From Deferrisoma camini S3R1 (GTDB lineage Bacteria > Desulfobacterota > Deferrisomatia > Deferrisomatales > Deferrisomataceae), in NCBI RefSeq assembly GCF_000526155.1, contig NZ_JAFN01000001.1, forward strand, positions 206,824 through 270,823: a stretch of 64,000 nucleotides of DNA, given 5' to 3'. The notes below the pieces were generated by a model. That model was given only the letters and a program-made list of their open reading frames with translations. It did no database searches and was not told the DNA's origin. Numbering within the stretch: position 1 is the stretch's first letter; each line of letters starts with the position of its first letter. Positions 3,600 through 61,354 of this stretch are shown here, piece by piece. Made by a program: the position numbers and the translations under genes.

Positions 3600-3990
3600 C
3601 CCAAGCCACGCCCGCAGCGCTCGCAACGGGTTCTGGGGTTGGGGGTTCACGTAGCTGTCCGTGGCGCCGTTGCGTGACCCCCGAAGTTCCCGCCGTGGCT
3701 TGGAGCACTACAACTTCATGTCTCGCGCCACGCTCGCAACGACGCAACGGGTTTTGGGGTTGGGGGTTTCCGGGGCGAGCTTGGCGGCGTTGCGTGAATC
3801 CCGCAGTTCACGCCAAGGTCTGGGGAACGTCAACTTCTTGGTCTCACGCCACGCCCGCAACGGCGCAACGGAAGGCCGTGGGCAGTCACGCGTGAGGAGT
3901 GACGGGGCCGGGGGCGTGTGGCGGTTTCCACGACGAACGACCTGCGACAGGCGGACCAACGTGGCGTCCGTTGCGTGAGCCCCTCTCCCC
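3600..3990. repeat. Dispersed intergenic repeat block A (117-bp family plus 150-bp tail)
   Basis: The 530-bp gap before vapB contains no supported gene. It is made of repeat modules: CACGCTCGCAACG...TTGCGTGA units related to the tandem array at 15.78-17.04 kb, then a ~150-bp module (about 3840-3990) with GTGGGCAGTCACGCG and GTGGCGGTTTCCACGACGAA. From about 3715 to 3990 it is nearly identical to about 17765-18035. The 150-bp module also occurs at about 4990-5150. Open frames here are a consequence of the repeat composition. Confidence 0.8.
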
Positions 3991-7825: not shown

Positions 7826-8221
7826 ATGCCAAGGACCGCAAGGCTCGATGTACTCGGTGTCCTCCAGCACGTGATGGCCCGGGGGATCGACGGGTACGCG
7901 ATCTTTCGGGACGAACGGGACCGGGAGGCGTTCTTGGAGCGCTTGGCCGGGGTGGTGGAGAGGGCTCGCGCGGACCTGCTGGCGTGGTGCCTGATGTCCA
8001 ACCACTTCCACCTGCTGGTCCGCCCCCGCGAGGTGCTGCTGGCGCCGATGATGCGACGGCTGATGACGGGGTACGCTGGTCCACGGGACGCTGGTCCAAA
8101 ACGAATATGGGGAATTCGGGACGCTGGTCCTCGGGAATTCGGGACGCTGGTCCTCGGGAATTCGGGACGCTGGTCCAAAACGAATATATCTTGCCATTCG
8201 ATGGCGACCACGGTAGGTTGA
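7826..8221 (+). pseudogene. Truncated REP-associated tyrosine transposase (RAYT), N-terminal duplicate
   Basis: The first ~84 codons (MPRTARLDVLGVLQHVMARG to RRLMTGYA) duplicate the start of the intact RAYT gene exactly 400 bp downstream, with only a few substitutions. The reading frame then runs into the REP-like repeat array at 8072-8182 and ends in unrelated sequence. It keeps the HUH motif (NHFHLLV) but lacks the catalytic tyrosine region and everything C-terminal, so it cannot be an active transposase. It arose by partial tandem duplication of the RAYT 5' part including its upstream REP-like motif. Confidence 0.85.
8072..8182 (+). repeat. REP-like short repeat array between the two RAYT copies
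   Basis: Four copies of GGGACGCTGGTCC begin at 8085, 8118, 8141 and 8164, the last three at a 23-bp period (GGGAATTCGGGACGCTGGTC-type unit), with a partial copy at 8072-8082. The first and last continue into AAAACGAATAT. RAYT enzymes are known to act on such REP palindromes, so this array is the likely substrate of the adjacent enzyme. Confidence 0.8.
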
Positions 8222-15779: not shown

Positions 15780-17045
15780 TCACGCGACGAGCGCAAAGAA
15801 CTTCTTGGGGTTTCCGTGGCGGACTTGGCGGCGTTGCGTGAGTCCCGCGGTTCACGCCAAGGTCCGTGGAACGTCAACTTCTTGGTCTCACGCCACGCTC
15901 ACGACGAGCGCAAAGAACTTCTTGGGGGTTCCGTGGCGAGCTTGGCGGCGTTGCGAGAGTCCCGCGGTTCACGCCGAGGTGCGTGGAACGTCAACTTCTT
16001 GGTCTCACGCCACGCCCGCGACGAGCGCAAAGAACTTCTTGGGGGTTCCGTGGCGAGCTTGGCGGCGTTGCGAGAGTCCCGCGGTTCACGCCGAGGTGCG
16101 TGGAACGTCAACTTCTTGGTCTCACGCCACGCCCGCAACGGTCGCAAAGAACTTCTTGGGGTTTCCGTGGCGGACTTGGCGGCGTTGCGAGAGTCCCGCG
16201 GTTCACGCCGAGGTGCGTGGAACGTCAACTTCTTGGTCTCACGCCACGCTCACGACGAGCGCAAAGAACTTCTTGGGGGTTCCGTGGCTGACTTGGCGGC
16301 GTTGCGTGAGTCCCGCGGTTCACGCCAAGGTCCGTGGAACGTCAACTTCTTGGTCTCACGCCACGCTCACGACGGTCGCAAAGAACTTCTTGGGGTTTCC
16401 GTGGCGGACTTGGCGGCGTTGCGTGAGTCCCGCAGCTCACGCCAAGGTCCGTGGAACGTCAACTTCTTGGTCTCACGCCACGCCCGCAACGAGCGCAAAG
16501 AACTTCTTGGGGGTTCCGTGGCGAGCTTGGCGGCGTTGCGAGAGTCCCGCGGTTCACGCCGAGGTGCGTGGAACGTCAGCTTCTTGGTCTCACGCCACGC
16601 CCGCAACGGTCGCAAAGAACTTCTTGGGGGTTCCGCGGCGAGCTTGGCGGCGTTGCGAGAGCCCCGCGGTTCACGCCAAGGTCCGTGGAACGTCAACTTC
16701 TTGGTCTCACGCCACGCCCGCGACGGTCGCAAAGAACTTCTTGGGGGTTCCGTGGCGAGCTTGGCGGCGTTGCGAGAGTCCCGAAGTTCACGCCGAGGTC
16801 CGTGGAACGTCAACTTCTTGGTCTCACGCCACGCCCGCGACGAGCGCAAAGAACTTCTTGGGGGTTCCGCGGCGAGCTTGGCGGCGTTGCGTGAGTCCCG
16901 CGGTTCACGCCGAGGTGCGTGGAACGTCAACTTCTTGGTCTCACGCCACGCTCACGACGAGCGCAAAGAACTTCTTGGGGGTTCCGTGGCGAGCTTGGCG
17001 GCGTTGCGTGAGCCCCGAAGTTCACGCCAAGTTCTACGACGAACC
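15780..17045. repeat. Tandem array of 117-bp repeats, 11 copies
   Basis: The marker AAAGAACTTCTTGG occurs at 15795, 15912, 16029, 16146, 16263, 16380, 16497, 16614, 16731, 16848 and 16965, each exactly 117 bp apart. Each unit reads roughly GGTCTCACGCCACGC, CGCAAAGAACTTCTTGG, TTCCGTGGCGAGCTTGGCG, GCGTTGCGTGAGTCCC, TTCACGCC(A/G)AGGT, GTGGAACGTCAACTTCTT. The outer TCTCACGC / GCGTGAG parts are complementary, so each unit could fold. Copies differ at a few fixed positions in mosaic combinations, suggesting unequal exchange or conversion. Because 117 is a multiple of three, long open frames exist on both strands. They are not treated as genes. This array fills the 1.38-kb gap between the GxxExxY and Uma2 genes. 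Confidence 0.92.
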
Positions 17046-32668: not shown

Positions 32669-34630
32669 TCACACGGCGGGCCGGCGGTCCCGGAGGCCCC
32701 CGGCGCTGCGGAGGAACGTGGGCCCTGCGCCGGTGCGGGGGGCGTCGAGGATGCGGGCCAGGGTGGCCCGGACCGTGGCCGGGTCGTCGTCGAAGTCCCC
32801 GTGGTGGCGGGCGCGGGAGGCGCCGGCCGAGCCCACGGGCTCGGTGTTGGGGGCGAGGACCCAGCTCTCGCCCCGGACGAGCACCCGCCCCAGGTCCGGG
32901 TCGTCGGCCACGAACCGCTCCATGCCCAGGATCGGTTCCCCGTCCCGGACCCCGGGAATGCGCGGCCGGGCCTCGAAGGCGTTCGACACCAGGTACAGCA
33001 GGGACTTGTGATAGATGTTGGCGCAGTGGTCGTCCTGCTCGGCCTCGTCGGTCAGGGTGAACAAGGTGAACCGGCCGATGCCCCCGTCCCGCACGGCCGG
33101 GAGGTAGCAGGCCTTGAACAGTTCCACGGTGCACGCCGGCGCCCACAGGGTGCACGAGGCCACCGGCAGCCCCAGCCCCATGCGGCCCGCCATGGGCCCC
33201 GAGGGGATCCTCCCCCGGGCGGTGAGCCACTGGACCAGCGGGGCCAGGAAGATGCTCCCGGCGCTGTGGCCGGCCAGATGGATCTCCAGGTCCGGGTCGG
33301 CCCGGGCCAGGTCGGCCACGAGCTCCCCCACCCACCGGGCCGCGCCGTCCCGGCGCGTGGTGGAGCGCAGCGCGTTCTCCTTCATCTCGTCCCACACCGC
33401 CTTGCCGCCCAGGCCCCGGGCCAGGGGCTCCAGGGCGTCGTCCAGCCGGTCCAGCAGGAAGTCCTTGGCCTTGTCCCAGAACCCCTCGGGCCGCCGCCGG
33501 CCCAGGGCGTCGTCCAGGATGTTCCGGACCGTGGTCCAGAAATCCGTCTTCCACACGAAGGCCAGGGGGTAGACCTCGGCCCCGAGCAGGGCCGCCCGGT
33601 ACTCGGCCACCCGCTGGATCGCGGTCTTCTCGTCCACCAGCCCCCCGTGGGCGTAGAGGAGCACGCGTTTCCGGCCCCACCCGGCCACGGCCCGAGGGAT
33701 CTCGGTGCGCACGATCTCGGCCACCTCGGCCCGGGAGGTGCCGTAGGTGCCGCCCTGGCGCAGCCGGCCGTCGTTGCCCACGCTCACCAGGTGGGGCCGC
33801 AGGTCGGCGTAGGCGTAGCCGCCGGCCAGGTTGCCCCGGGCCGACAGCCCGGCGGCCACGGTCTGGCGGGCCAGCGCCACCGGCGCCCCGAGCCGGGTCA
33901 CCCACACGTCCATGGCGTTCTCGAACCAGTCGTCGTAGGTGACCAGCGCGAGCCCCCGCTGCCCCCACCCCGGCCCCCAGGAGTTCTGGATCCAGAACCC
34001 CCTCTCGTCGTAGGCCACGATGGCGAAGGCATGGCCGCCCACCCGGTCGGGCCGGTGGGGGATCACCCCGTCGGCCTCGGACTCATACCACCCCGTGTGG
34101 ATCCAGGAGGTGGCGAACAGCACCCCCACCTCGGCCAGGGCCGTGTGGAGCGCGGCCAGGTCGTGGTGGTTCACCCGGTAGTAGGCGCCCAGGGGCCGGC
34201 GGCCGGCGTCCCGGGCGATCGCGGCCGTGAGTCGGCCCCGGTTCCGGCGCCGGGGCCAGAGCCGTGCCGCGCACACCCCGTGCTTGTGCCAGCCCTTCAC
34301 CGCGCCCCGGGCGCTGGAGCCCTCGTAGCCCTCGCCGGGCCACTCGTCGTACCGCCGGGCCAGATCGTAGAGCATCCAGGGGCTCACCCGGGTTCGGTCG
34401 GGCTCCACGCTGCGGGTGCGCAGCAGGAAGTGGACCACCGTGGCCAGCCCGAACCCGGTGCATGCGCCGTCCGGCCCCTGGTCCAGCACCGGCACCCGGG
34501 CCCGCCGGAACCGCTCCACCGGCAGCCGGGGGGGCACCTCGATCAGGGTGGGCTCGAACAAGCGGTCGCGGAAGTCGGCCGTGTCGGGCCGGGCGTCGAA
34601 GCGGTAGGTCTCGAAGGGGACCGGGGACAT
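32669..34630 (-). CDS. Papain-like (C1) protease fused to alpha/beta hydrolase
   Basis: A 653-residue two-domain protein without signal peptide. Residues ~1-250 are a C1-family cysteine peptidase: Gln51/Cys57 in VLDQGPDGACTGFG, His200 in VGGHAFAIVAYDE, and Asn216 in GFWIQNSWGPGWGQRG. Residues ~315-640 form an alpha/beta hydrolase: RKRVLLYAHGG, the nucleophile elbow HLAGHSAGS (Ser456), and a late His-rich segment (RARHHGDFDD). The ATG at 34630 follows AAGGAG. It is the last gene of a leftward cassette controlled by a SARP regulator. Both active sites look complete. The substrates are unknown. An intracellular effector or stress protease role is possible but unproven. Confidence 0.75.
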   Translation of the reverse strand: MSPVPFETYRFDARPDTADFRDRLFEPTLIEVPPRLPVERFRRARVPVLDQGPDGACTGFGLATVVHFLLRTRSVEPDRTRVSPWMLYDLARRYDEWPGEGYEGSSARGAVKGWHKHGVCAARLWPRRRNRGRLTAAIARDAGRRPLGAYYRVNHHDLAALHTALAEVGVLFATSWIHTGWYESEADGVIPHRPDRVGGHAFAIVAYDERGFWIQNSWGPGWGQRGLALVTYDDWFENAMDVWVTRLGAPVALARQTVAAGLSARGNLAGGYAYADLRPHLVSVGNDGRLRQGGTYGTSRAEVAEIVRTEIPRAVAGWGRKRVLLYAHGGLVDEKTAIQRVAEYRAALLGAEVYPLAFVWKTDFWTTVRNILDDALGRRRPEGFWDKAKDFLLDRLDDALEPLARGLGGKAVWDEMKENALRSTTRRDGAARWVGELVADLARADPDLEIHLAGHSAGSIFLAPLVQWLTARGRIPSGPMAGRMGLGLPVASCTLWAPACTVELFKACYLPAVRDGGIGRFTLFTLTDEAEQDDHCANIYHKSLLYLVSNAFEARPRIPGVRDGEPILGMERFVADDPDLGRVLVRGESWVLAPNTEPVGSAGASRARHHGDFDDDPATVRATLARILDAPRTGAGPTFLRSAGGLRDRRPAV

Positions 34631-34646
34631 GGAAGCGCTCCTTTCC

Positions 34647-35159
34647 CTACGGAGAAGAGGGCGGTTGGGACGGGGCGTCCGGCCCGGGCCGGCGCATCGA
34701 GCCGAACAGGTAGCCCACGATGGCGCCCAGGATGCCCATGGCCGCGGTGAGCTGCTGCTCGGCATCGGCCAACACCACGATGAACACGGTGGCGAACACC
34801 ACGAGAACGAGCCCGCTTGCGTTGAGGACCTGGGCGGTCGAGTGGGGGGATCGCCACAGCAGAACCCCGAGCACCGAGGCCAGGCTCACCACCAGGGTGA
34901 TGCTCAGCAGCACGCACTCGATCACCCGGTTGGCCTCCTGCTTCATCCGGTACTCGTGCAGGAGCTTCAGATAGAGCTGGTAGTCGGTGCTCGTCGCCGT
35001 GAGGTCCGAGGGCGGCACACCGGCGAGGTCGGTGGCATCCACCAGTTTCATCAGCGCGTCCACCCGGTTCGGGGCGGGGGTGTCGCCGGGCGCCCCACCC
35101 GGCACGAGGACGAGGAAGGCGGCGAGGACGGCCACCGGCAGCGGGCCCCGACCGATCAC
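34647..35159 (-). CDS. Small membrane protein of the protease cassette
   Basis: A 170-residue protein. The GTG start at 35159 overlaps the stop of the preceding gene (GTGA). It has an N-terminal hydrophobic segment (LPVAVLAAFLVLVPGGAPG) likely to be a signal or anchor, a soluble stretch (~40-85), then membrane helices (VIECVLLSITLVVSLASVLG, VLNASGLVLVVFATVFIVVL) and MGILGAIVGYLFGS near the end. No known domain is recognised. It lies 16 bp upstream of the protease-hydrolase start and is almost certainly co-transcribed with it. Confidence 0.65.
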   Translation of the reverse strand: MIGRGPLPVAVLAAFLVLVPGGAPGDTPAPNRVDALMKLVDATDLAGVPPSDLTATSTDYQLYLKLLHEYRMKQEANRVIECVLLSITLVVSLASVLGVLLWRSPHSTAQVLNASGLVLVVFATVFIVVLADAEQQLTAAMGILGAIVGYLFGSMRRPGPDAPSQPPSSP

Positions 35160-35449
35160 GGCTGTTCCTCCAGGATCCGCAGGAACCGGTAGTACCGGTA
35201 CGCGGCCTCCTCGTTTCCCTGCTCCTTTGCCTGCTTCAGCCGCTCCGCGAGCCGTGCCGCCAGGTCCCGGCGTTCCTCTGGGGTGAGCCGGGCCGCCTGC
35301 TGCCGAAACTCCCGGAACGGGTCGGGCCGGGGCGCGGGCTGCTGAGCCGGGGGCGGAGGGGCGAAGGGGCGCAACTCGCCGCCCCACCCCGGTTGGGCGC
35401 CGAGCCAGAGCGGAACGCCGAGGCCGAGCAGCAGAGGTTTCCAACGCAT
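35156..35449 (-). CDS. Small exported protein of the protease cassette
   Basis: A 97-residue protein whose ATG at 35449 overlaps the upstream gene's stop. It has a signal peptide (MRWKPLLLGLGVPLWLGAQP), then a Pro-rich linker (APPPPAQQPAPRPDP) and a helical, charged tail (PEERRDLAARLAERLKQAKE, ending AAYRYYRFLRILEEQP). No family is recognised. Tight overlaps on both sides show it is part of the operon. Confidence 0.65.
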   Translation of the reverse strand: MRWKPLLLGLGVPLWLGAQPGWGGELRPFAPPPPAQQPAPRPDPFREFRQQAARLTPEERRDLAARLAERLKQAKEQGNEEAAYRYYRFLRILEEQP

Positions 35450-35688
35450 CAGGGCCGCCCCTTTCGGGCCGCGACGATCGGCCCAACGTTCTCGGGAAGC
35501 ACCGGAACCCCCTCGATCTCGTCCGGGAGGGGAGGGTCCACGGAACATGCCGGCCGCTCCGTGCCGACCCGGATGCAGGCCGCCCCGTCGGGCCCGAGCC
35601 CCACCCAGACCCCCACCACCCCGGTTCTCGAAAGAAGGGCGGCCCGATGCCGGGCCAGCACGTCTTGGGCCTGATCCACGGTGGCCAT
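35449..35688 (-). CDS. Small hypothetical protein, resembles the N-terminal module of trypsin-like proteases
   Basis: A 79-residue protein starting at the ATG at 35688 after AGGAGA. The sequence (HRAALLSRTGVVGVWVGLG, then PDEIEGVPVLPENVGPI) resembles a short domain often found in front of trypsin-like peptidase domains in bacteria, with the pattern VxGVGVG...PxEIxGxPV. Here it stands alone with no protease domain attached. The resemblance is from pattern memory and is uncertain. It overlaps the next gene and belongs to the cassette. Confidence 0.6.
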   Translation of the reverse strand: MATVDQAQDVLARHRAALLSRTGVVGVWVGLGPDGAACIRVGTERPACSVDPPLPDEIEGVPVLPENVGPIVAARKGRP

Positions 35689-35828: not shown

Positions 35829-35990
35829 TCAGAAGAAGTCGAACCGCACGTAGGGCACGAACACCGAGTCGGGGTGTCGAAAGCTCACCCGGGACGTGGA
35901 CCCCCCGCCCGACGTGTAGGCATGGACCCGCAGCTGTACCTCGGCGATCTGCACCTCGCGCACCGCCTGTTCCACCCCTTCGGTTGCCAT
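35829..35990 (-). CDS. Very small protein, first gene of the protease cassette
   Basis: A 53-residue protein (MATEGVEQAVREVQIAEVQL at the start, PDSVFVPYVRFDFF at the end) with a strong RBS, GGGAGG, before the ATG at 35990. It has no membrane segment and ends in an aromatic-rich tail. It is the first reading frame after the TCACCGG repeats at 36056-36095. No family is recognised. A small regulator, substrate or inhibitor of the downstream enzymes is possible. Confidence 0.55.
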   Translation of the reverse strand: MATEGVEQAVREVQIAEVQLRVHAYTSGGGSTSRVSFRHPDSVFVPYVRFDFF

Positions 35991-36055
35991 GACCACCTCC
36001 CGGGCCTCGCCCGCTTGTGGGAACCCCCGTCGAGGGGCACCCAACCCGATCCAGA

Positions 36056-36095
36056 TCACCGGGGAGTCACCGGGGAGTCACCGGAACGTCACCGG
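36056..36095. promoter_or_regulatory. Four TCACCGG direct repeats at 11-bp period, candidate SARP operator
   Basis: TCACCGG occurs at 36056-36062, 36067-36073, 36078-36084 and 36089-36095, separated by GGAG, GGAG and AACG. Known SARP regulators bind heptameric direct repeats with 11-bp spacing, placed on one DNA face near the -10 region. The array lies between the SARP gene and the first cassette gene. No convincing -10 is seen on either strand. Confidence 0.75.
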
Positions 36096-36151
36096 GCAGA
36101 AAAATATCCGTTTGGTGCGAGAAAGAACCGAAAGGACGGGAGCGCGGGGGG

Positions 36152-36985
36152 CTATTTGAGGAGCCGTTCGAGCCGGTCGATACAGCGATCGAGGCGGTCC
36201 AGGGCCGCGGCGAGGCGGGGATCAGGGGATTCGAGGGGCGGCCGAGGCGGTCCAGGGAGCCGCGCCTGTTCGGCCAAGCGAAGGGTCTCGGGGTCGGGGG
36301 TGGCGTCCAGTTGATCGCGCAGCGCAGCCCGGCATCGCTCGAACTGGCGGAGGGCGAGCCCCCGGCGGCCGGCCTCCAGGTGGATCTGCATGACGTGGCG
36401 GTGCACGTCTTCGCGCAGCGAATCCTCGTCCAGCAGGCGCAAGGCCGCAGCCAGGGCCTGTTCGTACATGCCGTAGTACGCGTAGAAGCGGGTCAGGGTC
36501 TCGAGCGCGGCATGGCGCCTGCGGCGGACGCTCTCCCGTTCCAGATCGATCCACGGGGCGTCCCACCCGGAGAGGAGATCCCCGGTGTGGAGGGCGAGCC
36601 CGGCCTCGGCCTGGGTCGCCCGATCAAACGAAAGGGAGTGGAAGGGGTGGGTCGCCGCCGGCTCGGTGAGTCGGAGAAACTCGTCGAGGTCGAACCAGTG
36701 CCCATCGAGGTCGATCGCCACCTCCGCACGGTTCGCGACGAGGCACCGTCCGCCGCCGAGTGCCCCGTTGAGCCTCCACAGGGCGGTGCTGAGGCAACGC
36801 CGGGCGCGCGCGTCGGGCAGGCCGGCCCAGAGGGTTCCCGCGAGGGTGTCCCGGGGCACTCTGCGTCCGGCGCACAGGAGATAGGCAAGCACGGCGGCCG
36901 CGCTGGCCGGCAGGGAAACCGCCTGGCCGCTCGGTACACACTCCACCCGCAGTTCGCCCAGCACGAAGAACCGAAGCCCGCCCAT
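36152..36985 (-). CDS. SARP-like transcriptional regulator with BTAD domain
   Basis: A 277-residue regulator. The ATG at 36985 (MGGLRFFVLGELRVECVPSG) is preferred, with GGAGA upstream; an in-frame TTG lies at 37039. Residues ~1-95 are an OmpR-type winged helix (LRFFVLGELRVE, VLAYLLCAGRRVPRDTLAGT, ARRCLSTALWRLNGALGGG). Residues ~100-235 are the bacterial transcriptional activator domain (TGDLLSGWDAPWIDLERES, EQALAAALRLLDEDSLREDV, ALRQFERCRAALRDQL). A C-terminal amphipathic tail (LAAALDRLDRCIDRLERLLK) may multimerise. SARPs are known mainly from actinomycetes, where they activate gene clusters. Here it directly precedes the protease-hydrolase cassette and probably activates it through the TCACCGG array. 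Confidence 0.88.
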   Translation of the reverse strand: MGGLRFFVLGELRVECVPSGQAVSLPASAAAVLAYLLCAGRRVPRDTLAGTLWAGLPDARARRCLSTALWRLNGALGGGRCLVANRAEVAIDLDGHWFDLDEFLRLTEPAATHPFHSLSFDRATQAEAGLALHTGDLLSGWDAPWIDLERESVRRRRHAALETLTRFYAYYGMYEQALAAALRLLDEDSLREDVHRHVMQIHLEAGRRGLALRQFERCRAALRDQLDATPDPETLRLAEQARLPGPPRPPLESPDPRLAAALDRLDRCIDRLERLLK

Positions 36986-37071: not shown

Positions 37072-37106
37072 CACAAGAAAGAAGGAGGGGCCGGTGAGAC
37101 CCCTCC
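37072..37106 (-). terminator. Terminator of the cysteine synthase gene
   Basis: Stem GGAGGGG / CCCCTCC (37084-37090 and 37100-37106). On the minus strand it is followed by the T-rich TTCTTTCTT, 45 bp after the stop. Confidence 0.7.
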
Positions 37107-37151
37107 CTTGTGCGGTGCGCAGTTCGTGGGAGACGGCGGGTGGGGCCGGGG

Positions 37152-38117
37152 CTACACCCGGGGTTGGCCCTCGTCCCCGAGCCAGTCCTGGTAGAAGCTC
37201 ATGTACTTGAACGCCCCGTCGGGCACGATGGCCACGCCCACGCCGCCTTCGGTGCGGGCCTTCTCCCGGGCCGCCCACAGAACCGCCCCCGACGAGGGGC
37301 CCACGAGCAGGCTCTCGGTCCGCGCCACCTCGATGGCGGTGCGGTAGGCGGGCTCGTCGGGCACGGTGATCGTCTCGTCCACCACCGACGGATCCAGGAT
37401 CTCTGGCTGCTTCGACTCCTCGAAGTTCTTGAGCCCGGGCAGGCGGTGGCCCCGCTGGGGCTGGATCGCCACGATCCGGACGTCCGGATTCTGCTCCTTG
37501 AGGTACCGTCCCACACCCGTGATCGTGCCGCAGGTGCCGTACCCGGCGAAGAAGTGGGTGATCCGGCCCTCGGTCTGCTCCCAGATCTCGGGGCCGGTGG
37601 TCTCGTAGTGGGCGCGGACGTTGTCCGGGTTCTCGTACTGGTTGGGCATCACGTACTCGTCCCGGGTCCTCGGCCCCTCGGCGATGCTCTTGGCGAGCGC
37701 GATGGCCCCGTCCTTGGGGTGGTTGATGGGGCACAGGTCGTCCGGGGTGGGCCACACCTCCGCGCCCAGAAGCCGGAGCACGGTGAGCTTCTCCTCGGGC
37801 AGGGCGCTGGGCACGGTGATGGTCGCCTTCACCCCCAGAAGGTTCGCCAGCGCCACCAGCGCGATGCCGGTGTTCCCCGAGGTGGGCTCCACGATCTTCT
37901 TGCCCTGGGGCAGCTCCCCCCGCTCCCGAAGGCCCTTTAGCAGGTAGGCCGCGGTGCGGTCCTTGACCGAGCCGAACGGGTTGAAGCACTCGAGCTTGCC
38001 GTACAGCTCCATGGGCCCCTCGGGGGCGAACCGGCCCAGGCGCACAAGGGGGGTGGGATTGTCCGGGTTGGCCACCAGGTCCGCGATGCTGTCGTACACA
38101 CGGCGGGAAGCGGGCAT
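37152..38117 (-). CDS. Cysteine synthase family PLP enzyme (CysK/CysM-like)
   Basis: A 321-residue fold-type II PLP enzyme. PLP-lysine is K52 in FNPFGSVKDRTAAYLL, the substrate loop is EPTSGNTGIALVALAN, and the phosphate-binding loop is FFAGYGTCGTITGVGRYL. The C-terminal region has LVGPSSGAVLWAA. These make cysteine from O-acetyl- or O-phosphoserine and sulfide. It is close to CysK or the CBS core, and no CBS regulatory domain is present. The start ATG at 38117 follows AGGAGA. It has its own promoter and terminator and is probably monocistronic. Confidence 0.9.
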   Translation of the reverse strand: MPASRRVYDSIADLVANPDNPTPLVRLGRFAPEGPMELYGKLECFNPFGSVKDRTAAYLLKGLRERGELPQGKKIVEPTSGNTGIALVALANLLGVKATITVPSALPEEKLTVLRLLGAEVWPTPDDLCPINHPKDGAIALAKSIAEGPRTRDEYVMPNQYENPDNVRAHYETTGPEIWEQTEGRITHFFAGYGTCGTITGVGRYLKEQNPDVRIVAIQPQRGHRLPGLKNFEESKQPEILDPSVVDETITVPDEPAYRTAIEVARTESLLVGPSSGAVLWAAREKARTEGGVGVAIVPDGAFKYMSFYQDWLGDEGQPRV

Positions 38118-55849: not shown

Positions 55850-55854
55850 CGTCG

Positions 55855-56008
55855 GTCGTCGGTCGCCGGTCGTCGGTCGTTGGCCGTCGGTCGTCGGTCG
55901 TCGGTCGTCGGTCGTCGGTCGCCGGTCGCCGGTCGCCGGTCGCCCGCCACCCGCCACCCGCCACCCGCCACCCGTCACCCGTCACCCGTCACCCGTCACC
56001 CGTCACCG
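55855..56008. repeat. Unbroken run of 22 heptanucleotides
   Basis: The 154 bp divide exactly into 22 seven-base units in one register: mostly GTCGTCG, then GTCGCCG, then GCCACCC (four), then GTCACCC (five), ending GTCACCG. All fit GYCRYCS, apart from one GTCGTTG. It lies between the kinase and thiolase genes. Confidence 0.92.
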
Positions 56009-56032
56009 ATCCCCGACATGGAGACGTTGCCC

Positions 56033-57241
56033 ATGCGTTTTGCCAAGACCGACCGCGACGCCGTGATCGTGAGCGCCGTGCGCACCCCCATCGGAAAGTT
56101 CGGGGGAAGCCTGAAGGGGCTGAGGGCCCACCGGCTGGCCGCCGTGGTGATGGACGAGGCCCTACGCCGGGCGGGCCTGGCCGGGGCCGACCTGGACGAG
56201 GTGATCGCCGGCGAGTGCATCCAGTGCCCTGACGAGGCCAACACGGCCCGCACCGCTGCGCTGGCCGCGGGCATCCCGGTGGAGGTGCCGGCCTTCACGG
56301 TGCAGAAGCAGTGCTCCTCGTCCATGCAGGCCCTGGGTTCGGCCCGGCTCCTGGTCAACGCGGGCGAGGCCGGGGCCGTGCTGGTGGTGGGGGTGGAGAG
56401 CATGTCCAACGCCCCCTACGTGCTCAAGACCGCCCGGTGGGGCCAGCGCTTGACCCATGGGGAGATGACCGACAGCCTGTGGGAGCTCCTGAACTCCGGG
56501 AGCCGGATCCTCGGCAACGAGATGATCATGGGGCTCACGGCCGAGAACCTGGCCGAGCGCCACGGCATCTCCCGGGCCGACCAGGACGAGGTGGCCCTGC
56601 GGAGCCACCGCAACGCCGAGGCCGCGATCCGGGCCGGCCGGTTCGACGACGAGATCGTGCCGGTGCGGGTACCGGGCCGGAAGGGGGAGACCGTGGTCGA
56701 GACGGACGAGCACCCCCGGTTCGGCCTCACCCTGGAGGACCTGGCGAAGCTTCCGCCCGCCTTCAAGGAGGGGGGCACGGTCACGGCCGGAAACAGCTCG
56801 GGCCTCAACGACGGGGCGGCCGCGGTCGTGATCACCAGCCGGCACCGCGCCCGGTCGCTGGGGCTGCCCATTCTCGGCCGGGTGGTGGCCCAGACCAGCG
56901 CGGGGGTTCCCCCCGAGATCATGGGCTACGGCCCCGTGCCCTCCACCCGGAAGCTGCTGGAGCGCACCGGCATCGGTTTGGGGGACATCGGGCTGGTGGA
57001 GCTGAACGAGGCGTTCGCGGCCCAGTACCTGGCCTGCGAGCGGGACCTGGGGCTCGACCGGGAACGGGTCAACGTGAACGGAAGCGGCATCGGCCTGGGG
57101 CACCCGGTGGGGGCCACGGGTCTCAGGCTGGTCGTGAGCCTGGTCTACGAGATGCGGCGGCGGGGCGTGGGGCTGGGCCTCGCCACCCTGTGCGTGGGCG
57201 GCGGCATGGGCATGGCCACCCTCGTGGAAGCGGAGGGCTGA
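56033..57241 (+). CDS. Acetyl-CoA acetyltransferase (thiolase)
   Basis: A 402-residue thiolase. The active-site Cys is near residue 90 in VQKQCSSSMQALGSA, with VELNEAFAAQYLACERD, GSGIGLGHPVGATGLR (His) and the second Cys in LCVGGGMGMA. It catalyses reversible Claisen condensation of acyl-CoAs. Start: the ATG at 56033 has GGAGA eight bases upstream and fits the family start; another ATG at 56018 would add MET LP without an RBS. The heptad tract lies immediately upstream. It may act with the acyl-CoA genes at the other end of the window. Confidence 0.92.
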   Translation: MRFAKTDRDAVIVSAVRTPIGKFGGSLKGLRAHRLAAVVMDEALRRAGLAGADLDEVIAGECIQCPDEANTARTAALAAGIPVEVPAFTVQKQCSSSMQALGSARLLVNAGEAGAVLVVGVESMSNAPYVLKTARWGQRLTHGEMTDSLWELLNSGSRILGNEMIMGLTAENLAERHGISRADQDEVALRSHRNAEAAIRAGRFDDEIVPVRVPGRKGETVVETDEHPRFGLTLEDLAKLPPAFKEGGTVTAGNSSGLNDGAAAVVITSRHRARSLGLPILGRVVAQTSAGVPPEIMGYGPVPSTRKLLERTGIGLGDIGLVELNEAFAAQYLACERDLGLDRERVNVNGSGIGLGHPVGATGLRLVVSLVYEMRRRGVGLGLATLCVGGGMGMATLVEAEG

Positions 57242-57260
57242 GGCGCCCCTTCTCCCGGCG

Positions 57261-57707
57261 CTACCCCCTCCGGTCCGCGAACCGGGGGGTGGGGTCGGTG
57301 GGGCCCCGGTAGCCCCGGAGCCCCTGCTGACCCCGCTGCAGGGCTCGGACCCGGTCACGCAGCTCATCCCGGGCCCGCTCGGCAGCCCTGCGGGCCTCGG
57401 CGTCGGCGTGGCGGATGCGCACGGTCAGGTCCGTGAGCGCGGCCAGGAGCTCGGCCAGGAGGGGAGGAGGGGCGAAGGCCTGGCCGCGCAGGTCCTCGGC
57501 CTCGGCCTCGAGCCCGGCCAGCTCTTTCAATGCCCGGCCCCGGCGCTCCATGGCCGCCTCGATGCCCGGAATGTCCAGCTCGTCGGCCGCCTCGGCCGCG
57601 GCCCGGGTCGCATCGAGGATCTCCCGGCAGATCCCCACCTGGGCCACCAGGATGGCCTTGAGCGTCTGGGTCCGGGTGTCTCCGGTGTCGAGCTCGGCAC
57701 GTGCCAT
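57261..57707 (-). CDS. FliT/FlgN-like flagellar chaperone, putative
   Basis: A 148-residue, almost fully helical protein. ATG at 57707 after AAGGAGA. The position after FliS and the helical plan (TQTLKAILVAQVGICREILD; GIEAAMERRGRALKELAGLE) suggest a FliT or FlgN type export chaperone. Sequence conservation in these families is low, so the assignment is by context and size. It would cap FliD or FlgK and FlgL before export. Confidence 0.55.
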   Translation of the reverse strand: MARAELDTGDTRTQTLKAILVAQVGICREILDATRAAAEAADELDIPGIEAAMERRGRALKELAGLEAEAEDLRGQAFAPPPLLAELLAALTDLTVRIRHADAEARRAAERARDELRDRVRALQRGQQGLRGYRGPTDPTPRFADRRG

Positions 57708-57714
57708 GGAATCT

Positions 57715-57896
57715 CCTTGAATCAGTGACGGGTGACGGGTGATCTGTGACATCGGATCAGTGACGCGTGGCAAGTGACCCGTGATGCGTCACCCGTCCCC
57801 GCCGTTTCCCCGTCACCCGTCACCGCCCTTGTGGCGACCCGGCCCGAAGGGCCGCAAACCATTCACCATTCACGATTTACGATTCACGGCTCTCTA
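57715..57896. repeat. Composite repeat, flagellar copy 1
   Basis: GTGACGG/GTGATCT heptads, CGTCACC heptads, CTTGTGGCGACCCGGCCCGA with AGGGCCGCAAACC (hairpin CGGCCC-GAA-GGGCCG), then TTCACGA/TTTACGA heptads. The same order recurs in the next gaps of the flagellar cluster. Confidence 0.75.
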
Positions 57897-58346
57897 GCCC
57901 GTCACGCTCAACCGCGCGCCATCCTCGGCCGCGGGCACCCGCCGGTCCAGGGCCTTCACGGTCTCGTCGGCCTCGTCGAGCTTGAGCTCGGCCCACGCGT
58001 CCCGCAGCTCCCGGATGGCGGGCAGGATGCCCCGCACCGGCTCGGGGTCGTTGGTGAGGTTCGACTCGGTGATCTTCTGCATGAAGAACACGTACAGGTT
58101 CCACAGGTTCCGGGCGATCTCGCCCCCTTCCTCCATGTTCAGGGTGCTCGCCAGTTCCTGGATCACGGCCCGGGCCTTGGTGAGCTTCTCGTGCTTGGCC
58201 TCGATCTCTTTCTTCTCCATGTGGTCGAGGGCCTGGTTCAGGAACCTCAGGATGCCGTCGTAGGCCATCACAATCAGCTTCTGCTGGCTCGCCGTGGTGG
58301 CCACCTGGGTCTGTGTGTAGGCGGCAGCGCCCGGTCCGTACGTCAT
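57894..58346 (-). CDS. fliS: Flagellin export chaperone FliS
   Basis: A 150-residue FliS. ATG at 58346 with AGGAGG upstream. It begins YGPGAAAYTQTQVATTASQQ and has LIVMAYDGILRFLNQALDHM (the conserved MAYDG) and IARNLWNLYVFFMQKITESN (the conserved LY segment), then PVRGILPAIRELRDAW. It binds flagellin's C-terminus and prevents premature polymerisation. It is preceded by fliD and followed by a FliT-like gene. Confidence 0.93.
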   Translation of the reverse strand: MTYGPGAAAYTQTQVATTASQQKLIVMAYDGILRFLNQALDHMEKKEIEAKHEKLTKARAVIQELASTLNMEEGGEIARNLWNLYVFFMQKITESNLTNDPEPVRGILPAIRELRDAWAELKLDEADETVKALDRRVPAAEDGARLSVTG

Positions 58347-58369
58347 GAACTCCACCTCCTTGTGGGTCC

Positions 58370-58574
58370 TGTCAACTGCCGTGAATCGTGAATGGTGAAT
58401 CGTGAATCGTGAATCGTGAATCGTGGGGCGCTTCGCGCCCCGTGACGAGTGATTCGTCACCCGTCACCGCCCTGTCCCCGTCACCCATCACCTGTCACCC
58501 GTCACCGCCCTTGTGGCGACCCGGCCCGAAGGGCCGCAAACCATTCACAATTTACGATTCACGATTTACGGCCC
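58370..58574. repeat. Composite repeat, flagellar copy 2
   Basis: Six GTGAATC heptads at 58381-58422, a GGGCGCTTCGCGCCC hairpin (58427-58441), CGTCACC heptads, CTTGTGGCGACCCGGCCCGA and TTTACGA heptads. Confidence 0.75.
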
Positions 58575-60518
58575 CTAACCGTTCCACTTCCAGTTCGCAT
58601 TGAGCCCGGAGAGCGCGTTCATCAGGTAGTTGCCTTGGCTGTTGAACTCGTTGACCGCCTTCTCCATGCGGTAGAACTGCTCCAGCAGGCTCTCGCGCCG
58701 CTGATCCAGCCGGTCCTCCAGCTCCTTGATGTACTCGGCCATGGAGTCGATGGAGTTCTCCAGGGCCGTCTCCTTCATGCCGATCGTGCCGATCAGCGGC
58801 TGGGTCAGCCCCTGCAGGTACTCGTCGAACTTGTTGCCCACGCCCTTGGCAAAGTGGAGGGTCGTGGTGACCGAGCCGCCGGCATCCACCAGATCCTGGG
58901 CGGTGAGCTCCACCTTCAGCGTCACCCCGTCGGTGTTGGGGTTCCCGTCGTCGCCGGTCAGGGTCTGGCCCACGCCGGTGGCGCTCTCGCCGTTGATCGT
59001 GCCGGCCACGTCCACCCCGGAGTCCTGGTCGCCCGCCGTGAACCCGAGGTTCGAGAGGGCGTTTCCGCTGATGATCTGGACCTTGGAAGCCGATCCGTAC
59101 TTCTGAGAGGTGATCGTAAGGGTCCCCCCGCTTTCGGACACGCTCACTTCTCCCGCAGGCGCGGCCGCGTTCACCTTGGCCTGGATCTCCGCGGCCAGGT
59201 CCGCGGCCGACGCATAGGTCTTCTGCTCCAGGGTCACCGTGAACGAGGTCCCACCGTCCAGGGCCAGGGTGAGGGTGTCGTTCGTGGAGTCGATGGTGAG
59301 GGACCCCACGGCCGAGGCCCCGGTGACGGCCGCGCGCTCCGCCGCCCGGGTGATCACCACCTGGTACCCAGAGGACGATGGCTCCACCGCGTCCTTGCCG
59401 GCGTACACGAACGAGACCTTGGCGTGCTCGGTGCGGCCCGCGGTCCGAAACAGGTTCTTCACTGCGCCCGGGTCCTGGGCCACGGCCTCCTGGAACTTTG
59501 CCGTGTCGAACGACAGCACCCCGTCGTCGTCCAGCTTGAGCCCGATGGACCGGAGCGAGGTGATGTCGCCGCCGGTGGCCACGGGGCTCGCGATCATCGA
59601 CTGGATCCGGGTCTGGATCGTCAGAAGCGTGCGGTCCCCCATCAGGATGCCGCCGGTGTTCGTCTGGGGGTCGAACTTGAACTGCTCCCCGATGAACTCC
59701 ATGGCGGTGTTGTAGGCGTCCACGAACGCCTGGATCTTCTCCTCTACTCCCGAGGTGTCCCGGCTCATCGAGACCGTGACCTGGGTGCCCGGGCTCGCGT
59801 TCACCAGGTTCAGGGTCACCCCGGGGATCACGTCCTCGATCTGGTTCGACGACGAGGTGATCGTGATCGCACCGGTGCCCGACCCGAAGTTGATGGAGGC
59901 GTCCTGGGCGTCCTGCACCGTGGTGGTCGTCAAGGTAAACCCCGTGGCCGTCAGGCTCACGGTGTTGGCCGTGCCGGTCTGGTCCGAGGTCACCAGCAGC
60001 CGGTACTGGGAGCCGTCGTAGATCACCGAGGCCGTGGCGCCCACGTCGGCCTGGTTGATGGCGTCGGCCAGGCCCCGCAGGGTGTTGTTCGACGAGTCCA
60101 CCGTGATGTCCACGGACTTCGCGCCCACGGTCACGGTGAGGGTGCCGGTGCCCACGGTGTCCAGGTCCGAGGAGTACCCTCCCGTGGAGATTTGGTGGGC
60201 CTGGGCGAGCTGGGTGACCTCGATCGTGTAGGTGCCCGGCTGGGCATCGGACGAGGCCGTTGCCGTGAGGATGTTTTCGTTGGAGCTGGTGGCCGAGAGG
60301 GTGGTCCAGGTGGATGCCTTCCAGATCTCCTGGGCCTGGGTCCTGAGGTCCAGGAGCTTGGAGTTCACCTCCTGCCACGCCGAGAGCTGGTTCTCCAGCC
60401 GGGCCTTCTCGGCTTCCTTGAGAATCTTGGGCCGGCTCTCGACCTCGATCAGCTTGTCCACCGTCTCGGTGGTGTTGATCCCGGTCGCCAGCCCGTCGAA
60501 ACTGATCGTTCCCGGCAT
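58575..60518 (-). CDS. fliD: Flagellar filament cap protein FliD
   Basis: A 647-residue FliD. N-terminal TISFDGLATGINTTETVDKL, the FliD_N coiled coil, hypervariable beta domains in the centre, and FliD_C with GTIGMKETALENSIDSMAEY then ELEDRLDQRRESLLEQFYRM and EKAVNEFNSQGNYL at the end. The RBS GGAGG precedes the ATG. It promotes flagellin polymerisation at the tip. It is somewhat longer than E. coli FliD (468), as in many deltaproteobacteria. Confidence 0.95.
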   Translation of the reverse strand: MPGTISFDGLATGINTTETVDKLIEVESRPKILKEAEKARLENQLSAWQEVNSKLLDLRTQAQEIWKASTWTTLSATSSNENILTATASSDAQPGTYTIEVTQLAQAHQISTGGYSSDLDTVGTGTLTVTVGAKSVDITVDSSNNTLRGLADAINQADVGATASVIYDGSQYRLLVTSDQTGTANTVSLTATGFTLTTTTVQDAQDASINFGSGTGAITITSSSNQIEDVIPGVTLNLVNASPGTQVTVSMSRDTSGVEEKIQAFVDAYNTAMEFIGEQFKFDPQTNTGGILMGDRTLLTIQTRIQSMIASPVATGGDITSLRSIGLKLDDDGVLSFDTAKFQEAVAQDPGAVKNLFRTAGRTEHAKVSFVYAGKDAVEPSSSGYQVVITRAAERAAVTGASAVGSLTIDSTNDTLTLALDGGTSFTVTLEQKTYASAADLAAEIQAKVNAAAPAGEVSVSESGGTLTITSQKYGSASKVQIISGNALSNLGFTAGDQDSGVDVAGTINGESATGVGQTLTGDDGNPNTDGVTLKVELTAQDLVDAGGSVTTTLHFAKGVGNKFDEYLQGLTQPLIGTIGMKETALENSIDSMAEYIKELEDRLDQRRESLLEQFYRMEKAVNEFNSQGNYLMNALSGLNANWKWNG

Positions 60519-60529
60519 GGCTCGAACCT

Positions 60530-60725
60530 CCGTGATCAGTGACGAGTGATCCGTAACATGGAATCAGTGACGCGTGACGAGTGATCGTCACCGCTGTCCC
60601 CCATCACCCGTCACGTGTCACTCGTCACTGTGTCACCGCAGTTCCCCACCCGTCACCGCCCTTGTGGCGACCGGCCCGAAGGGCCGCAAACCATTTACGA
60701 TTTACGATTCACGATTTACGGCCCC
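60530..60725. repeat. Composite repeat, flagellar copy 3
   Basis: GTGACGAGTGATC heptads, CGTCACC heptads, CTTGTGGCGACCGGCCCGAA with GGGCCGCAAACC, TTTACGA/TTCACGA heptads. Confidence 0.75.
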
Positions 60726-61085
60726 TCAGCCCTTCCTGTCCAACAACGCCCCCACCATCTCCCCGATCTTGGCCGCCAGGTCCAGCAACTCCTTGGGCGG
60801 GAAGGTCTTGATGACCTCCTGGGTGCGGTTGTCCACCACCTCCACCATGAGCTGCTTCAGCTTGTCGTGGAGGGCGAACTGGATGTGGCTGTTATTGGCC
60901 TTCAAGAACCCGTTCATGGCCTCCACGGCCTGGGCCACCTCCTCGGGGGAGGGTTCGCGTTCCTCCCGCGCCTCCTCCACCCGCTGGGCCACGGCCTCCT
61001 GGGCCCTATGAATCGCCTCGTTCTGGGCGCCCCCGCTCTGGGGCGACCCGCGGATCGAAACCTCTGTGATCGCTTGCAAATTCAT
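60726..61085 (-). CDS. flaG: Flagellar protein FlaG
   Basis: A 119-residue FlaG. The ATG at 61085 is chosen because GGAGG lies 8 bp upstream; an earlier start would add five residues. The C-terminal conserved part reads ANNSHIQFALHDKLKQLMVE then VVDNRTQEVIKTFPPKELLD, diagnostic for FlaG. FlaG affects filament length and lies between flagellin and fliD as usual. Confidence 0.92.
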   Translation of the reverse strand: MNLQAITEVSIRGSPQSGGAQNEAIHRAQEAVAQRVEEAREEREPSPEEVAQAVEAMNGFLKANNSHIQFALHDKLKQLMVEVVDNRTQEVIKTFPPKELLDLAAKIGEMVGALLDRKG

Positions 61086-61354
61086 GGTCAACGCCTCCAT
61101 GCGTTAAGTGCCGTGAATCGTAAATGGTGAATCGTGAATCGTCGGGCGCTTCGCGCCCCGTGACGGGTGATCGGTGACGCGTGACCAGTGGCCCGCCGCC
61201 CGCCACCGCCATGTAGGAGCCACCTCCCGGTGGCGACCCGGCCCGAAGGGCCGTTCGTCGCAGGTCGCCGGTCGTTCGTCGTTTGGGCGGCCCGCAGGGC
61301 CGCAAACCATTTACGATTTACGATTCACGATTTACGGCCTTTCCCCCCCGCGAG
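61086..61354. repeat. Composite repeat, flagellar copy 4
   Basis: GTGAATC heptads, a GGGCGCTTCGCGCCC hairpin, GTGACGG heptads, TGTAGGAGCCACCTCCCGGT with GGCGACCCGGCCCGAAGGGC (as at 41011), CGCAGGTCGCCGGTCGTTCG, and TTTACGA heptads. It fills the 309-bp gap with flanking terminator. No gene. Confidence 0.75.

Follow-up and report, generated by a model that had tools for sequence, protein, structure and literature searches.

A predicted operator array of four CCGGTGA heptamers beside a small SARP gene in Deferrisoma camini, with counterparts in distant deltaproteobacterial lineages

Within a 64,000-nucleotide stretch of contig NZ_JAFN01000001.1 of Deferrisoma camini S3R1 (the window, hereafter), four copies of one heptamer lie at an 11-bp period directly behind a stand-alone gene for a regulator of the SARP family. 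This array is very probably the docking site, i.e. the operator, of the adjacent SARP, because related SARP genes in distant lineages carry the same kind of array in the same place. As a candidate operator, it combines the known SARP geometry with a GGTGA word in a deltaproteobacterial setting. A first-pass annotation of the window had already proposed a SARP binding site here, and that proposal is now supported by the AfsR-like profile of the protein, by conservation of the array in a congener and by its recurrence after SARP genes of distant lineages.

The array and its neighbouring regulator

Read on the forward strand, the array comprises four perfect TCACCGG heptamers, spaced at exactly 11 bp by GGAG, GGAG and AACG, and it lies within a 161-bp gap (35991-36151) after the stand-alone SARP gene, as direct reading of the coordinates confirms (Table 1). 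Because the genes to either side are both encoded on the minus strand, the orientation has been corrected to four CCGGTGA words, which on the coding strand are separated in order by CGTT, CTCC and CTCC. Chance had been judged a very unlikely source of four copies in this phase. With up to two mismatches allowed, TCACCGG-N4-TCACCGG has nine matches in the window against a shuffle mean of 1.9, and none of 100 window shuffles reached nine. Across the 4.24-Mb genome, the only perfect pairs of this kind are the three overlapping ones within the array, and the pattern GGTGA-N6-GGTGA-N6-GGTGA, even with one mismatch, is found at the array only. No perfect three- or four-copy heptamer array at period 11 turned up in 400 kb sampled from this genome.

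The first-pass annotation's naming of the neighbouring gene as a SARP also held. The product of 36152-36985 can be classed as a genuine small SARP because it has a BTAD match (PF03704, E 5.8e-20, residues 98-240) and because a profile built from four related proteins aligns with AfsR, EmbR and PhoB. That alignment spans the DNA-binding domain and BTAD of the AfsR chains determined by cryo-electron microscopy (8hvr, E 1.5e-15, AfsR residues 45-281), and it extends to EmbR (2fez) and, over the winged helix, to the PhoB DNA-binding domain. Pfam alone gave no winged helix-turn-helix call in the 277-aa protein, whose open reading frame (ORF) stands alone, without NOD or TPR regions. An AlphaFold model based on two sequences reached a predicted local distance difference test score (pLDDT) of 42.5 and was set aside as too poor, though its order of helices and strands fits. 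The nearest named relative is a 'Deltaproteobacteria bacterium' metagenome-assembled genome.

In AfsR, the base-contacting residues are T88 and R92 (PMC10936776). Their equivalents in the window protein, T67 and R71, lie in a recognition helix that reads RCLSTALWRL, and they are kept in all stand-alone members. Of seven stand-alone SARPs compared, six have CLSTALWRL and one (G168) has CLNTALWRL; other array-bearing SARPs have a related helix, (A/N)LE(S/T)T(L/I)YRL, and large SARPs without arrays have a different one, e.g. SFATNLHRL. This distribution suggests that helix type tracks the presence of the array, a correlation limited by the fact that T at the T88-equivalent position is also common in large SARPs; TPR-type SARPs have S or T there.

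Recurrence behind SARP genes of other lineages

Arrays with a GGTGA core and an 11-bp period occur on the same strand and in the same position after SARP genes in eight other genomes, i.e. one congener (G002), one member of another family of the order (G007) and representatives of distant lineages of the phylum. At the orthologous locus of the congener (JAADGT010000167.1), where the SARP is 91% identical, the array reads TTGGTGA, CTGGTGA, CCGGTGA and CCGGTGA in the 11-bp register; the outer letters and spacers have changed and the GGTGA core is invariant in all four copies, so that the array is conserved at the kind of locus where the first-pass annotation proposed to check for it. The SARP of G007 is 38% identical, and just past its stop codon stand TCGGTGA, TCGGTGA, GCGGTGA, GCAGTGA and AGCGTGA at 11 bp. 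This five-word array precedes an operon with phage-tail sheath genes, which suggests that the SARP there may control a contractile injection system or a tail-like particle; the locus (L032 9771-16000, G007:C42) has its stand-alone SARP gene directly before the phage-tail-like operon, the sheath domains being assigned by Pfam. In G251 and G383, three words follow the SARP stop and precede a cassette with subtilase and radical-SAM genes, the array of G383 matching the three-copy pattern with one mismatch. At both loci (L069 4722-8031 and L111, respectively), a subtilase with CYRAP-like repeats adjoins a PqqD-SPASM radical SAM protein behind the SARP array, and these genes are possibly a modified-peptide cassette. 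Finally, G161, G427, G250 and G430 have three to four words between a SARP-domain gene and a trypsin-like gene; the SARP of G161 differs in architecture, its SARP domain forming the C-terminal part of a TPR protein, and in all four genomes the gene stands before the trypsin-like pair that the congener also has.

When 395 genomes of the phylum were searched for GGTGA-N6-GGTGA-N6-GGTGA, ten were positive, as against one for a reversed control pattern. A stand-alone SARP of this clade was present in six sampled genomes, and the exact three-copy pattern occurred in five of these six versus five of the 389 others, an association of approximately 2e-8 (hypergeometric, by our own arithmetic, with relatedness ignored); in four of the six, the pattern lies directly after the SARP gene. 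Each SARP-to-target gap was also scored for a run of three words in 11-bp register. The matrix used came from the other lineages alone, and the scores were set against 3000 dinucleotide shuffles per gap, with periods of 8-14 and both strands compared. All nine gaps scored above every one of their 3000 shuffles, and they did so at no period other than 11 and on no strand other than the coding one. Because the words were first seen in these loci, it is the leave-one-lineage-out design rather than the raw score that carries weight. Trypsin-like pairs without a SARP neighbour (G143, G270) had no array, and 18 large-SARP loci, with their different recognition helix, had no convincing one, the two weak matches falling inside the SARP ORF itself and inside a convergent ORF.

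These associations also bear on the idea that the array binds some other regulator of the OmpR/PhoB type. PhoB too uses direct repeats of 7+4 bp at 11 bp, the geometry is common to the whole class of OmpR-type winged helices, and the N-terminus of the SARP can be aligned with the DNA-binding domain of PhoB. The idea is nonetheless improbable, as the arrays follow SARP genes in six lineages that differ in what lies downstream, no other common regulator was noticed near them and GGTGA is not the PhoB word; no phosphate genes were noticed in the immediate neighbourhood, the word and the neighbours having been judged by eye only.

Promoter geometry and rival accounts

The first-pass annotation took direct heptamer repeats at one-turn spacing to be the SARP geometry, which accords with SARP repeats at 11 or 22 bp (PMC10936776). 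The array likewise has heptameric direct repeats with 4-nt spacers in the promoter region of a putative target. Each NNGGTGA word would hold one SARP monomer, so that several monomers line up along the same face of the helix, and the bound SARP would bring RNA polymerase to the promoter of the minus-strand operon that follows. The regulator would probably act by activation rather than repression; we infer both its binding to the array and which genes of the operon respond. In SARP operators, the 3' repeat lies 8 bp from the -10 element, and the afsS promoter's own -10 is poor (PMC10936776).

Some observations weigh against the operator reading. In the window, where GGGTTG stands 8 bp past the array, no -10 can be recognised and no sigma-70-like promoter was found; nor is a -10 visible after the G002 array. 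In several AT-richer lineages, -10-like hexamers lie approximately 10-13 bp past the last word, which is near but not exactly 8 bp, and their register is uncertain; an exact 8-bp spacing in G251 and G383, perfect by eye, was discarded, as the best hexamers there begin 11-15 bp on. An adjacent array is missing beside two SARPs of the clade, i.e. that of G168, which faces a 0.7-kb gap, and that of G405, whose neighbouring gene is convergent. Lastly, GGTGA arrays without SARP genes occur in some genomes of the phylum and in viral satellites.

The expectation that the array would be restricted to SARP loci stands only in part: the array is unique in its own genome, but similar SARP-less arrays exist in a few genomes of the phylum and in viral satellites. 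Arrays not adjoining SARP genes were seen in G007:C32, G007:C56, G050, G272, G389, G298 (its context judged from sequence only), G168:C73 and G183, and they may be trans targets or chance occurrences. The two G007 arrays (L050 ~976 and L142 ~1501) are alike and lie just after remnants of a primase-like gene, and G183 (L053, L061-L066) has GGTGACCAAATGGTGACTTGGAGGTGA in seven copies, some near contig ends, which probably represent a mobile or repeated element. In IMG/VR, 77 viral contigs (L165-L241) have at least four GGTGA at 11 bp, mostly as 11-mer satellites and several with the same 11-bp unit; no SARP was detected on these contigs, and a scan of IMG/VR for SARP relatives found none. Since SARP-less arrays exist, the array alone is neither diagnostic nor proof of a SARP site, and it is the association with the gene that does the work. 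The same viral contigs, mostly with near-identical spacers, lend something to the view that the array is a selectively neutral 11-bp satellite beside the SARP gene by chance, as do the identity of two of its four 11-mers, spacer included, and the many other short tandem repeats in the window. Such a satellite is nevertheless very improbable: the core is kept and the spacers have diverged between lineages so far apart that neutral DNA would no longer align, the array tracks the SARP neighbour (the G161 type versus G143 and G270), and the genome sample is free of heptamer arrays at this period.

A SARP bound to the array might instead repress or autoregulate, with the promoter upstream and the array as part of the transcribed leader. 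Immediately upstream of the array there is indeed a conserved AT-rich stretch, GGATATTTTT (coding strand), and the Geobacter SARP-type regulator GSU1771 is reported to act as a repressor of some genes and an activator of others (PMC10599522). Repression is unlikely, given that an AT-rich -10-like element after the array in G251, G383, G161, G427 and G250 has the geometry of an activator site and that the SARP family generally activates. Still further from probable, and scarcely credible, is a role as RNA, in which GGUGA words repeated along the leader would pair with the 3' end of 16S rRNA and buffer translation. GGUGA does match the anti-Shine-Dalgarno UCACC, and the array lies 65 bp before the start codon in the window; in G251 and G383, however, that distance is approximately 250 bp, a normal Shine-Dalgarno sequence, GGGAGGTG, is already present at the start, and the strict 11-bp period would be left without a reason.

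The downstream cassette and wider significance

The array had been placed before a cassette that the SARP should control, and a putative operon does follow it, but the first two genes of that operon are deleted, and a fusion scar of 53 aa is now its first ORF. In the congener, the two missing genes encode a protease of trypsin-like type, with Trypsin_2 and NAL1-like domains, and a 310-aa partner. An in-frame deletion of 1,725 bp between two copies of the 7-bp repeat GGCGATC has cut into both genes in the window, leaving the first 16 codons of the protease gene joined to the last 37 of the partner gene, an ORF that annotation would mistake for a small gene. The trypsin-like protease gene has no other copy in the window's genome. 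Because the homologous pair is intact in other lineages, we infer that the derived state is a deletion in the window and not an insertion in G002; the deletion may also be an assembly error. The rest of the minus-strand run is intact. With the first two genes lost, the SARP is left next to a shortened cassette whose last member is a papain-like peptidase. The 79-aa product has no significant Pfam match and looks, by eye, like the N-terminal part of the trypsin-like protein, and the ~657-aa protein has a possible C-terminal alpha/beta-hydrolase region (DUF900 at 0.16, below the cut-off).

Table 1. Features of the SARP locus, in window coordinates
Feature	Position	Strand	Basis or remark
Operator array (predicted), four CCGGTGA heptamers (coding strand), 11-bp period	36056..36095	-	Direct reading and pattern search
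Array copies	36056-36062, 36067-36073, 36078-36084, 36089-36095	-	
SARP gene, stand-alone; 277-aa product with OmpR-type winged helix-turn-helix (N-terminal) and BTAD	36152..36985	-	Pfam, profile matches, helix alignment
53-aa ORF directly downstream of array, in-frame fusion	35829..35990	-	Comparison with congener locus L031
Deletion scar GGCGATC (plus-strand letters)	35943..35949	-	Twice in congener, 1,725 bp apart
79-aa ORF, next in putative operon	35449..35688	-	Kept in G002
~97-aa ORF, signal-like N-terminus	35156..35449	-	Kept in G002
~170-aa ORF, probable membrane protein, start not fixed	34647..35160	-	Kept in G002
~657-aa papain-family C1 peptidase protein	32669..34642	-	Pfam Peptidase_C1 1.5e-5
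Terminator-like hairpin between cysteine-synthase-like gene (37152-38036) and SARP gene	37082..37108	-	Weak: 1 found, shuffle mean 0.6

Elsewhere in the window, a cluster of 7-bp tandem repeats occupies 55850-61340 (CGTCGGT x13, GTCACCC x10, CGTGAAT, ATTTACG and CGTCACC); several of these are apparently intergenic, and the 400-kb genome sample is without a perfect four-copy 7-bp array. A 117-bp tandem repeat (10.6 copies, 93% alike) lies at 15783-17028, a seemingly similar 121-bp repeat (2.2 copies) at 3605-3871, and three near-complete identical copies of the 23-bp unit GGGAATTCGGGACGCTGGTCCTC at 8110-8176. A defence-system reading was dropped, PADLOC having returned a weak TPR match only.

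Among known systems, AfsR of Streptomyces coelicolor and its afs box share with this locus an OmpR-type DNA-binding domain plus BTAD, and 11-bp direct repeats with one protomer per repeat (PMC10936776), the binding here being predicted. The present case differs in being a deltaproteobacterial relative, a small SARP of 277 aa, with four NNGGTGA words and with proteases downstream in place of afsS. The layout of heptamers with 4-nt spacers is that of the PimR operator, whose three CGGCAAG words (PMC5930380) partly resemble CGGTGA; for PimR and the small SARPs DnrI and ActII-ORF4, three copies are typical and monomers bind cooperatively. Those regulators belong, however, to actinobacterial antibiotic clusters, with another heptamer and usually two to three copies, compared to four here and five in G007. 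Within the deltaproteobacteria, GSU1771 of Geobacter sulfurreducens is a SARP-type regulator that binds several promoters in electrophoretic mobility shift assays, but it carries a receiver domain and acts on other kinds of genes, and the available portion of the paper (PMC10599522) contains no operator sequence that we found. A 2024 review describes SARPs as exclusive to actinobacteria (PMC10972967), and no description of a non-actinobacterial SARP operator was found in the literature searched. The usual distribution, in actinobacteria and antibiotic clusters, is thus not matched by a deltaproteobacterial SARP with proteases or a tail-like operon downstream, a departure that is a matter of distribution and not of mechanism.

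On balance, although with less assurance than for the operator itself, we favour a portable module within the phylum, in which a SARP with a CLSTALWRL or NLETTIYRL helix and three to five NNGGTGA words would have been long inherited and set before different cassettes, namely the NAL1-like trypsin protease pair, the tail-like injection operon, and the subtilase and radical SAM genes. The co-occurrence of regulator and predicted operator in several distant lineages gives a readable operator word, so that the targets of uncharacterised SARPs become predictable from sequence alone, and it makes of the recognition helix and the DNA word a directly testable pairing. The nature of these cassettes suggests that SARPs serve to control products well beyond antibiotics.
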